64,000 nucleotides of DNA, taken from Bradyrhizobium sp. sBnM-33 (lineage in GTDB: Bacteria; Pseudomonadota; Alphaproteobacteria; Rhizobiales; Xanthobacteraceae). The notes beneath the pieces are model-generated. The model made no database searches. It was given only the letters and a program-made list of their open reading frames with translations, and was not told the origin of the DNA. The stretch is taken from the NCBI RefSeq assembly GCF_032917945.1, contig NZ_CP136624.1, positions 8,288,501 through 8,352,500 of the forward strand, read 5' to 3'. This document shows, in pieces, positions 56,198 to 58,533 of this stretch; position 1 is the stretch's first letter, and each line of letters begins with the position of its first letter. Position numbers and translations under genes: made by a program.

Positions 56198-56277
56198 TTG
56201 ATGTTTAGCGCGGGCCGGTGAATTAAGCACGTTCCGGCGCGTTAAAATTGGCCATAGTTTTTGGGGATTCCCTCCCG

Positions 56278-56736
56278 CTATACCTTCCAGACACCCACAG
56301 GCTGACGCACGGCGACGTTGAGCCTGTTCCAGACATTGATATTGGCGATTGCCAGAATCAACGCCGCGAGCTCCGCCTCGTTGAAATGCTTGTCGGCCTC
56401 ACGCCAGACCTCGTCCGGCACCGGATCGGCGCGGTCGCTGATCCGGGTCAGCGCTTCCGTCAACGCCAGGGCCGCGCGCTCGGCTTCGGTGAAATAGGGC
56501 GTGTCGCGCCAGGCGGCCACTGCGAACAGCTTCTCGTCGGTCTCGCCGGCCCTGCTGGCGAGTTTTGAGTGCATGTCGACGCATACACTGCAGCCGTTGA
56601 TCTGGCTGGCCCGCAGATGCACCAGTTCGAGCAGCTTTTCCGACAGGCTGTTTTTGGTCAATTCACCCAGCGCGTGCAGTGCCTTCATGGCGTCGGGAAC
56701 AACCATGACCGGGTGATTCATTCGGGCTTGCATCAT
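56278..56736 (-). CDS. Carboxymuconolactone decarboxylase/AhpD-family protein, ECF41 partner
   Basis: Protein of 152 residues with the AhpD-like redox pair CSVCVDMH near residues 47-50 and LRASQINGC before it. The C-terminal half has ALTEALTRISD and FNEAELAALILAIANINVWN, the usual CMD fold. GGAG lies 6 nt before ATG 56736. It diverges from an ECF sigma factor with a SnoaL-like tail; such pairing with a CMD-type, oxidoreductase or epimerase gene is the diagnostic context of ECF41 sigma factors. A likely role is peroxide or organic-radical detoxification; the actual substrate is open. Confidence 0.88.
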   Translation of the reverse strand: MMQARMNHPVMVVPDAMKALHALGELTKNSLSEKLLELVHLRASQINGCSVCVDMHSKLASRAGETDEKLFAVAAWRDTPYFTEAERAALALTEALTRISDRADPVPDEVWREADKHFNEAELAALILAIANINVWNRLNVAVRQPVGVWKV

Positions 56737-56766
56737 TTTGCGCTCCATATGGTTGGTTCTGTTTTT

Positions 56767-56794
56767 GACGCGGCGGCGCCGATTTGCTGTCACA
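56767..56794 (-). promoter_or_regulatory. Candidate ECF41-type promoter toward the CMD-family gene
   Basis: On the minus strand TGTGACA (56794-56788) is followed after 17 nt by CGTC (56770-56767), ending about 30 nt before the start codon. It differs by one base and one spacer position from TGTCACA-N16-CGTC. Confidence 0.5.
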
Positions 56795-56814
56795 TCGGCG
56801 CGCTTTCGTTCGTC
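56788..56814 (+). promoter_or_regulatory. Candidate ECF41-type promoter of the sigma-factor gene
   Basis: TGTCACA at 56788-56794 and CGTC at 56811-56814 with exactly 16 nt between, 36 nt before the sigma-factor ATG. This is an exact match to the motif reported for ECF41 target promoters, as I recall it from the literature. Confidence 0.7.
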
Positions 56815-56850
56815 ATCACCATGACGGAACGCGACATGGGAATGTGACCG

Positions 56851-57708
56851 ATGGACGAGAAAAAGTTTCTGGCTGAGAAATTCGAAGCAAACCGGCCCCA
56901 TCTGCGGGCGGTGGCCTACCGCATGCTGGGCTCGACCAGCGAGGTCGATGATGCCGTGCAGGAGACCTGGCTGCGGCTGAGCCGTTCCGATACCAGCGCG
57001 GTCGAAAACCTCGGGGGTTGGCTGACCACGGTCGTGGCGCGCGTCTGCCTCGACATGCTGCGCTCGCGCAAATCGCGGCGAGAGGAACCGATGGGTCCGC
57101 ACGTGCCGGAACCTGTCGCCGCTGACCAGCATGGGCGGGATGCGGAAATGGCCGACTCCGTCGGCGCGGCACTGCTGGTGGTGCTGGAAACGCTCGCGCC
57201 TGCGGAGCGGCTCGCCTTCGTGCTGCACGACATGTTCGCCGTGCCGTTCGAGGAGATCGCGCCGATCGTCGGCCGCACGCCCGCCGCGGCAAGGCAACTG
57301 GCCAGCCGCGCCCGTCGCCGGGTGCAGGGCAGTCCGCCGCCGGATGCCGACTTCAGCCGGCAGAAAGACATTGTCGACGCCTTCATCAAGGCTTCCCGCG
57401 AGGGCGACTTCGAAGGGCTGCTCGCGGTGCTCGATCCCGACGTGGTATTCCGCGCCGATTCCGCCGCGCAGCGACTGGGCTCGCTCGCCGAAATCCGCGG
57501 CGCTGCTGCGGTCGCCGAAACCTTCAAGGGACGCGCACAAGCCGCCAAGCCGGCGCTGGTCGACGGTGCATTGGCGCTCGCCGTCATTCTCGGCGGACAA
57601 CTGCGCATCGTGGTGCGGCTGACGATCAGTGGCGATAGGATATCGGCGGTCGAAGCGGTGGCTGATGCCGAGCGGATCGGTCAGCTCGACGTAAACCTGC
57701 TCACGTGA
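56851..57708 (+). CDS. ECF sigma factor with SnoaL-like C-terminal extension (ECF41/SigJ-like)
   Basis: Alternative sigma factor of 285 residues. Region 2 is RPHLRAVAYRMLGSTSEVDD with AVQETWLRL; region 4 is LETLAPAERLAFVLHDMF followed by EIAPIVGRTPAAARQLASRA. A VPEP stretch in the linker resembles the WLPEP of ECF41. The extra C-terminal 110 residues (FSRQKDIVDAFIKASREGDF, LLAVLDPDVVFRAD) form an NTF2/SnoaL-like domain that in ECF41 proteins replaces the anti-sigma factor. No anti-sigma gene is adjacent. The divergent CMD-family partner and the promoter motif support the class; the DGGGR block of classic ECF41 tails is not evident here. Confidence 0.88.
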   Translation: MDEKKFLAEKFEANRPHLRAVAYRMLGSTSEVDDAVQETWLRLSRSDTSAVENLGGWLTTVVARVCLDMLRSRKSRREEPMGPHVPEPVAADQHGRDAEMADSVGAALLVVLETLAPAERLAFVLHDMFAVPFEEIAPIVGRTPAAARQLASRARRRVQGSPPPDADFSRQKDIVDAFIKASREGDFEGLLAVLDPDVVFRADSAAQRLGSLAEIRGAAAVAETFKGRAQAAKPALVDGALALAVILGGQLRIVVRLTISGDRISAVEAVADAERIGQLDVNLLT

Positions 57709-57714
57709 GCGGCT

Positions 57715-58533
57715 TCATCGGCCCTTTGATGCGAAGAACACGATCGCCTGAACCGGCATCCGGCCGGGATCGCCGAATTCGCGGCGAAAGGCCTGTGCCA
57801 TCGCGTCGACGATCTGCTCTGGATCGACGCCGCCGCGCGCCCGGACCTGATCGATCAGCGGATTGCCATGGACGGCTGCCCGCGCGAAGGTCGCGATATC
57901 AGGGAGTTCTCTTACCTGCCTGATCACGGCAATGCCGATATCGCCGAAGCCAGCCGTGATCAGCATCTCCTTGATCGGGTCGATCTGGTGGCAGGAGAAC
58001 GGCACGTTGTAAAATTGCGGCGGGTCGGTCGCGAAGAAACCGCCCGCCACTTCATGCGCGATCCGGCCGAACGGATTGTAGCGATGAGAGTCCCAAACGC
58101 TGAGCACGTAGCGGCCACCGGGCGCGAGTACGCGATAAGCCTCGGAAAAGGATTTTGCCTTGTCCGGAAAGAACATCAGGCCGAACTGACAAACGATCGC
58201 ATCAAAGCTTGCATCGGCGAAGGGAAGCGCGACCGCATCGGCGGGCTGGAAGGCGACCTGCTCATCGGGCTGAAACTTGGCGCGGGCAATATCGAGCATC
58301 GGCGGATTGAAATCGGTCGCTGTTAGCTGCGTGTCTCGTGGCAACACGTCACGCAACTGCCGCGTCACGATGCCGGTACCGGCGGCGGTTTCGAGCACTC
58401 GCACCGGACCGCCGCTGGCAACACGCTTGGCAATGTCCGCGGCATATTCGGCGAAGATGATCGGGCCAAGGCCTTGATCGTAATAGTGCGGGATGCTGCC
58501 CGTGAAACTCGCGGCGTTGTTGTTGTTGTCCAT
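57715..58533 (-). CDS. Class I SAM-dependent methyltransferase (UbiE/Methyltransf_11-like)
   Basis: Small-molecule methyltransferase of 272 residues. SAM motif I is VLETAAGTGIVTRQLRD, then ATDFNPPMLDIARAKF, motif II FDAIVCQFGLMFFPDK and motif III VLAPGGRYVLSVWD. GGAGG lies 7 nt before ATG 58533; an in-frame ATG at 58539 is possible. The acceptor is unknown. It converges on the ECF41-type gene with a 6 bp gap and diverges from the GntR gene, sharing its operator region. Confidence 0.88.
   Translation of the reverse strand: MDNNNNAASFTGSIPHYYDQGLGPIIFAEYAADIAKRVASGGPVRVLETAAGTGIVTRQLRDVLPRDTQLTATDFNPPMLDIARAKFQPDEQVAFQPADAVALPFADASFDAIVCQFGLMFFPDKAKSFSEAYRVLAPGGRYVLSVWDSHRYNPFGRIAHEVAGGFFATDPPQFYNVPFSCHQIDPIKEMLITAGFGDIGIAVIRQVRELPDIATFARAAVHGNPLIDQVRARGGVDPEQIVDAMAQAFRREFGDPGRMPVQAIVFFASKGR

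Follow-up and report, generated by a model that had tools for sequence, protein, structure and literature searches.

How can an alternative sigma factor gene and a divergently transcribed neighbor be served by the short stretch of DNA between them? This question is raised by a locus of Bradyrhizobium sp. sBnM-33, where the gene for an ECF41-like sigma factor lies next to a CMD/AhpD-family gene that is located upstream of it and read in the opposite direction. The window, that is, the whole stretch of 64,000 nucleotides analyzed, corresponds to positions 8288501-8352500 of a 9.18-Mb genome assembled in one contig. A methyltransferase gene flanks the sigma gene on its other side, no anti-sigma gene adjoins it, and the gene beyond CMD resembles an adenylate cyclase as judged from its translation only. 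The CMD start at 56736 was picked for the GGAG that precedes it, ATG codons at 56748 and 56733 being the alternatives. A search of 56200-57800 against Rfam gave no match up to E 0.1. The features discussed below are collected in Table 1.

Table 1. Genes, promoter elements and predicted features of the locus, in window positions.
Feature	Position	Strand	Basis
CMD/AhpD-family gene, CxxC (CSVC)	56278..56736	-	translation and family profiles
Predicted 5'-terminal stem-loop, CMD mRNA leader	56767..56814	-	folding; weak covariation
-35 TGTCACA, sigma-facing	56788..56794	+	sequence; KGTCACA-N16-CGTC in 77/78 orthologs, exact TGTCACA in 40
-10 CGTC, sigma-facing	56811..56814	+	sequence; next base A 56815 also conserved
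Predicted +1 (G), CMD transcript	56814	-	prediction by the ninth-base-after-CGTC rule
8-bp gap between both -10s	56815..56822	.	78/78 orthologs; 106/119 scanned loci among the matches listed
Predicted +1 (G), sigma transcript	56823	+	prediction: ninth base after CGTC, as read at S. meliloti rpoE9
-10 CGTC, CMD-facing	56823..56826	-	sequence and ortholog comparison
-35 GGTCACA, CMD-facing	56843..56849	-	sequence; GGTCAC[AG]-N16-CGTC in 75/78 orthologs
Sigma factor, SigJ/ECF41-like, C-terminal SnoaL/NTF2-like domain, 285 aa	56851..57708	+	translation, Pfam/NCBIfam profiles, sequence and structure matches

Two ECF41-type motifs between the sigma and CMD genes

The plus-strand motif at 56788-56814 is real. 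As an earlier note on this DNA had stated, TGTCACA-N16-CGTC stands 36 nt before the sigma ATG (56851), and it agrees with the ECF41 target, TGTCACA-n16±1-CGTC. With a spacer of 15-19 it is the single match in the window, where 0.13 would be expected by chance. Across the 9.18-Mb genome TGTCACA-N16-CGTC occurs three times (reversed control, one per strand), and the other two matches overlap long ORFs. The pattern KGTCACA-N16-CGTCA also has three genome matches (reversed control, one), two of which are the halves of a single site at 56788-56849. The third (2009608), considered as a further target of the sigma factor, has a core that overlaps long ORFs on both strands and was taken as chance.

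The second half of that site is GGTCACA(56849-56843)-N16-CGTC(56826-56823) on the minus strand. The combined site reads [T/G]GTCACA-N16-CGTC-N8-GACG-N16-TGTGACC over 62 bp, with the two promoter motifs face to face. The earlier note was right in assigning one ECF41-type promoter to each gene; the CMD-facing one, however, stands by itself at the other end of the site and is not a second use of one -35 box, and the pair is arranged with adjacent -10s instead of back to back. The A that follows the sigma-facing CGTC is present in 0.90 of 72 aligned sites. In the same alignment the sigma-facing -35 is followed by TCGG (T 0.67, C 0.81, G 0.65, G 0.72), which has no mirror on the CMD side.

Conservation was examined within the genus, where the sigma protein has matches at E 1e-30 in 89 of 146 genomes, that of the window included. 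We used 78 ortholog-level loci, the window's own among them, leaving out pieces at contig ends (G042, G073), second pieces (G028, G077, G122) and all matches of at most 55% identity. All 78 have an adjacent, divergent CMD gene and 8 bp between the -10s. The one ortholog without the plus motif (L025) has TGTGACA for TGTCACA, and the three without the inner minus motif have another first base in the -35. A 55%-identical paralog (L082, in G027) keeps this geometry, its elements varying to GTCACG and CCTC, and has no CMD match in 1.2 kb.

The minus-strand motif named in the earlier note, TGTGACA-N17-CGTC (56794-56788 and 56770-56767), is a different matter. Its letters are present exactly as described, but it does not behave as a conserved promoter. 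The corresponding model, a shared -35 at 56788-56794 that drives transcription both ways back to back through a rightward TGTCACA-N16-CGTC and a leftward TGTGACA-N17-CGTC, can point to its retention in 35 of the 78 orthologs, all in the nearer clade. When a spacer of 16-18 and a looser -35 are allowed the count rises to 40; the other 38 orthologs, nearly all from a clade of 73-78% identity, have no match even so, and among the wider sites that have a sigma gene an outer GACG at N17 is found in just 4 of 72. Furthermore, the minus copy breaks the -35 core, with GTGAC instead of GTCAC. Because the core is altered and the conservation is poor, TGTGACA-N17-CGTC is very probably not the CMD promoter. 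The earlier note had looked to other Bradyrhizobium strains for a decision: this half-motif fails there, whereas GGTCACA-N16-CGTC passes. On the conservation counts the outer motif was rejected as a promoter, and we regard the shared -35 model as very unlikely.

Alternatively, the outer CGTC may form the closing strand of a stem in the CMD leader. In the predicted leader the 5' GACG pairs with CGUC at 56770-56767, and at least four of the first seven bases are paired in 65 of 72 distinct Bradyrhizobium CMD leaders. The mean folding z is -1.71 for CMD leaders versus +0.63 for sigma leaders, the latter folding worse than shuffled sequence. No pair is changed on both sides in the clade A leaders (32 rows), and in clade B (37 rows) one pair shows four double changes and six breaks; three leaders (L040, L041, L057) were placed in neither clade alignment. 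Given this weak covariation, a 5'-terminal stem in the CMD leader is a possible role for the outer CGTC.

Recurrence of the site and its link to divergent gene order

A motif scan of 84,980 species genomes, in which the gap between the -10s was left free from 0 to 30 bp, gave at least 119 loci. Among the matches listed, the gap is 8 bp in 106 of 119 loci, the others having 9 (five loci), 11 (three), 5, 10, 21, 23 and 24. An ECF41-like sigma gene starts within 500 bp of the site and runs away from it at 104 of these 106 listed gap-8 sites, with sigma genes 42-91% identical by blast segment; CMD lies across the site in 68 of the 104, and the remaining two of the 106 have CMD only. For 33 of 34 candidate ORFs at listed sites lacking CMD, set against Pfam, the names include glyoxalase, PNPOx, NmrA/NAD-binding and MFS. 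According to record titles and tree, the sites occur in at least five phyla: Pseudomonadota, Actinomycetota, Acidobacteriota, Chloroflexota and Myxococcota. The partner-ORF, motif, alignment, tree and outer-GACG counts rest on 80 of the at least 119 loci, with gap 8 in 73 of the 80.

Pattern controls were run on smaller sets. In 398 Pseudomonadota genomes a relaxed pattern matched in 13, of which 11 had gap 8, six in Bradyrhizobium (including the window's own genome), against one genome for the reversed pattern and four for the back-to-back order. In 198 Actinomycetota genomes it matched in 10, with gap 8 in four, 9 in two and 0, 4, 14 and 15 in the rest; one of the four gap-8 genomes is the centre genome of that survey, itself drawn from the motif scan. 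One of the four Pseudomonadota matches to the back-to-back order is apparently a real ECF41-type pair, with 22 bp between the -35 cores (G461:C16:46540-46613). Single half-motifs do arise by chance, as the two other genome matches that overlap long ORFs illustrate, yet a chance likeness in GC-rich intergenic DNA is contradicted by the conservation and already refuted by the gap distribution, and its probability is negligible.

A 62-bp dyad centered on CGTCA-N6-TGACG could also be expected of an operator for a dimeric repressor or activator in place of two promoters. Its arms, however, are the known ECF41 -35/-10 pair at the known spacing, and ECF41-like sigma genes adjoin nearly all of the listed gap-8 sites. 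In addition, the spacers have no mirror symmetry (0.336 observed versus 0.395 when shuffled between sites; 73 sites), so that the dyad resides in the promoter elements. We therefore hold the operator reading to be highly improbable. At one site, in Ktedonobacter robiniae (L169, 6027-6088), 27 of 31 positions are mirrored, spacers among them, so that the pair comes close to a perfect palindrome and looks as though one promoter had been copied onto the other.

Since the motif scan selects on the motif, a further set of loci was picked by protein homology only. GTCAC and GTGAC stand 50 or 51 apart in 14 of 50 sister-branch loci, compared with a mean of 0.01 and a maximum of 1 over 300 shuffles that preserve single-base content only, and in 12 of 40 loci of the 198-genome Actinomycetota survey alone. 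One locus (L288) was left out of this set, being the scanned locus L095 itself, and two others (L345, L346) have identical upstream DNA; without one of them the count is 14 of 49. In this set a 9-bp gap with mostly GGTC/TGTC-like -10s is as common as the 8-bp gap (distance 51 in eight loci, 50 in six). Five actinobacterial loci (L301, L304, L306, L309, L313) have this 9-bp-gap form with GGTC/TGTC-like -10s and a divergent upstream gene without CMD match.

The second promoter follows divergent gene order in the homology-picked loci. With a distance of 49-52 bp and one mismatch allowed, the pair occurs at 18 of the 35 loci that have a divergent neighbor upstream, versus one of 15 co-directional loci (one-sided Fisher p 0.0024), and in the Actinomycetota survey alone in 15 of 28 versus one of 12 (p 0.0076), the direction of the upstream gene being called by a codon-GC heuristic and not from annotation. 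The correspondence is partial, as 17 of the 35 divergent loci have no pair at the strictness used and the pair of the one co-directional locus has one mismatch.

This link bears on the simplest alternative, namely that this sigma factor uses only the sigma-facing promoter, that conservation of the right half of the site reflects ribosome binding and translation start of the sigma gene, and that the CMD promoter lies elsewhere. GGTCACA does have the Shine-Dalgarno-like GGGA on one side and the sigma ATG on the other, and the overlap of the CMD-facing -35 with this translation start region could add to its conservation. However, the pair is missing from 14 of the 15 co-directional loci, and the -10 CGTC and the 8-bp spacing are fixed as well. 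Moreover, CGTGACC variants (L039, L040, L057, L082) preserve the promoter reading and not the ATGTGA reading. Altogether, we consider a single sigma-facing promoter unlikely.

The sigma factor and its relation to ECF41

The product of the sigma gene combines sigma2 and sigma4 with a SnoaL-like C-terminal extension of about 100 residues, as ECF41 factors do. In Pfam, regions r2 and r4_2 score above the cut-off and SnoaL_2 just below it (25.7 bits, cut-off 27), and the NCBIfam SigJ profile gives 257.5 bits against a cut-off of 271. The AF2 model contains a confident C-terminal SnoaL/NTF2-like domain, its pTM of 0.47 leaving the arrangement of the domains unsettled. A Foldseek search returned SigJ as the top match by E-value with a whole-chain TM-score of 0.31, and NTF2-like proteins further down. 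By sequence, the best solved relative is SigJ of M. tuberculosis (PDB 5xe7, E 4.3e-45), which resembles the window protein in having sigma2-sigma4 followed by a SnoaL-like domain.

Three motifs of canonical ECF41 factors are missing. WLPEP in the linker between sigma2 and sigma4, which SigJ carries, reads HVPEP in the window protein; it is found in none of 30 Bradyrhizobium sigmas and in two of 66 wider sister sigmas from the gap-8 sites listed, compared with 42 of 46 other ECF41-type proteins. DGGGR is a motif of the ECF41 C-terminal extension. The tail of the window protein has no DGGG, as the earlier note had observed. NPDKL has been named as another motif of the extension (PMC7730460). Both DGGG and NPDKL are found in none of the 30 Bradyrhizobium sigmas, in none of the 66 wider sister sigmas listed and, each, in 44 of the 46 other ECF41-type proteins. 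In a tree of 177 proteins built by a quick method, a split with SH-aLRT 100 separates 57 canonical-side from 120 sister-side rows, and all 70 sigmas of listed face-to-face sites in the tree fall on the sister side.

Given the missing motifs and the tree split, we do not file this sigma factor as canonical ECF41; judged by its sequence, it belongs to a sister branch, a label that places it relative to canonical ECF41; other SnoaL-bearing groups are ECF56, ECF205, ECF294 and ECF295. The suggestion of an ECF41 variant that has kept its promoter thus finds its counterpart in a branch without WLPEP, DGGG and NPDKL that retains TGTCACA-N16-CGTC. A CMD-type COE neighbor with CxxC, the target promoter and the lack of an adjoining anti-sigma gene are likewise as in ECF41, and the sigma factor would appear to work like ECF41 as far as promoter and partner gene go.

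In the loci compared, the face-to-face pair goes with this branch. A relaxed pair was found in none of 12 canonical-like loci of the homology-picked set. Of 49 other Rhizobiales loci, two (L227, L228) have such a pair and are close sister-branch relatives, whereas the other 47, of ECF41 type, have none. These loci were scanned whole, since windows of 200 nt miss the promoter at most loci of the order >COE> >ECF>. One sister-branch sigma (L229, 51% identical, no DGGG) belongs to a >COE> >ECF> locus that has a single promoter, before COE, and lacks the face-to-face pair. The canonical ECF41 paralog in the window's own genome (L083, G000:C1:4595775-4596593; 37-40% identical) has no adjoining CMD, and a [TG]GTCAC-type motif is missing from the stretch examined within 1.8 kb of it.

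Predicted starts, proposed mechanism and known systems

Transcription starts were predicted from published ECF41 promoters. The promoter of S. meliloti rpoE9 is printed as ending in CGTC-ATGGTGTC-G (PMC6180224 Table 1), in a table whose legend states that starts are shown by type face and lower case; rows with a lower-case letter have it last, and in the form available, which does not preserve bold, we infer that the final G, ninth after CGTC, is the +1 of rpoE9. For two ECF41 targets, the mapped start is a G with a leader of 22/23 nt, and Table 5 of Wecke et al. gives 31 and 32 for the same two (PMC3426412); the difference of 9 would fit if that table counts from the end of the -10. The ninth base after CGTC is G in 23 and A in seven of 32 single Rhizobiales ECF41-type promoters, a set that includes one with a sister-side protein in a >COE> >ECF> locus (L229) and one without DGGG (L262); GACG 8 bp after CGTC is found in none of the 32. 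The passages seen for published B. japonicum starts concern other ECF factors (PMC4842269, PMC3420878), and in PMC3616915 ECF41 is present only in a reference title.

If this rule holds at the window locus, the final base pair of each -10 would be the +1 of the promoter opposite, and one and the same stretch of about 16 bp would be melted in both open complexes. By this rule the CMD leader would be 66-81 nt long, against a mapped 22/23 nt at other ECF41 targets, which counts against the prediction.

Taken together, both motifs, their fixed geometry, their wide conservation and their link to divergent gene order make it likely that 56788-56849 is a bidirectional ECF promoter, that the adjacent sigma factor reads both halves, and that exclusive orientations split initiation between sigma and CMD. 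The active sigma factor would direct RNA polymerase onto this single segment in either orientation, the plus orientation yielding more sigma factor and the minus orientation the CMD/AhpD-like product. With one melted region common to both open complexes, the two holoenzyme orientations would exclude each other. Such a split would couple positive autoregulation to expression of the target and at the same time cap it. From the DNA we infer the recognition by this sigma factor, the start sites, the mutual exclusion and the function of the ratio.

It is tempting to extend this proposal to the sister branch in at least five phyla, although here we are tentative and rate it slightly below even: an interlocked promoter in which each -10 doubles as the opposing start may hard-wire the ratio of the two products, with a brake on autoregulation that replaces an anti-sigma factor. 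The long, specific -35s on both sides fix the geometry, and one of the two products is the very sigma factor that would read both. The arrangement thereby offers a natural small circuit, present in at least five phyla, for asking if competition between orientations sets the ratio of regulator to target. Besides, the face-to-face site provides an easy way of recognizing by sequence an ECF41 sister branch in which the motifs proposed for auto-inhibition are missing.

The closest known system is the ECF41 group as described by Wecke et al. (2012), with its TGTCACA-n16±1-CGTC promoter, CMD-type neighbor, C-terminal extension and no nearby anti-sigma gene (PMC3426412), all of which the window locus shares. 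Divergent ECF41-COE loci in which both genes are preceded by the motif have already been published: the same study reports 55 divergent <ECF< >COE> loci, with a promoter before ECF in 36 and before COE in 41, often both. It also describes TGTCACA promoters with a TGTT or CGTC -10 that responded to their ECF41 sigma factor in two organisms (PMC3426412). The factors tested in print are described with WLPEP, whereas the window sigma factor comes from the branch without WLPEP, DGGG and NPDKL. Furthermore, 40 other Rhizobiales ECF41-type loci (L229-L268) are usually >COE> >ECF> with one promoter before COE, unlike the divergent window locus. The text of Wecke et al., as far as available, gives no geometry for two divergent promoters (PMC3426412). 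By title and abstract start, the literature on ECF41 and on face-to-face, bidirectional, overlapping or palindromic ECF promoters did not yield the fixed-gap face-to-face geometry, its cross-phylum spread or its link to the sister branch, which is no proof of absence.

Promoters that work in both directions have been described in E. coli by Warman et al. (2026). There, according to the available passages, a pseudo-symmetric segment is bound by polymerase in two exclusive orientations that give divergent RNAs, the -10 is shared, and the starts are mostly 18 bp apart, with 10 and 23 also common (PMC12825309). Competition between the two directions mattered only once one of them was strongly activated (PMC12825309). 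The window locus would share with them a pseudo-symmetric segment engaged in two orientations: symmetric elements are present on opposite strands at 56788-56849, divergent starts are predicted, and exclusion would follow from the overlap. It differs from them in having, instead of a shared -10, two separate alternative-sigma -10s 8 bp apart, flanked by long -35s, and in that the sigma factor is one of the products. The predicted distance between the two starts, 9 bp, would place it near the 10-bp class of the E. coli promoters (PMC12825309).
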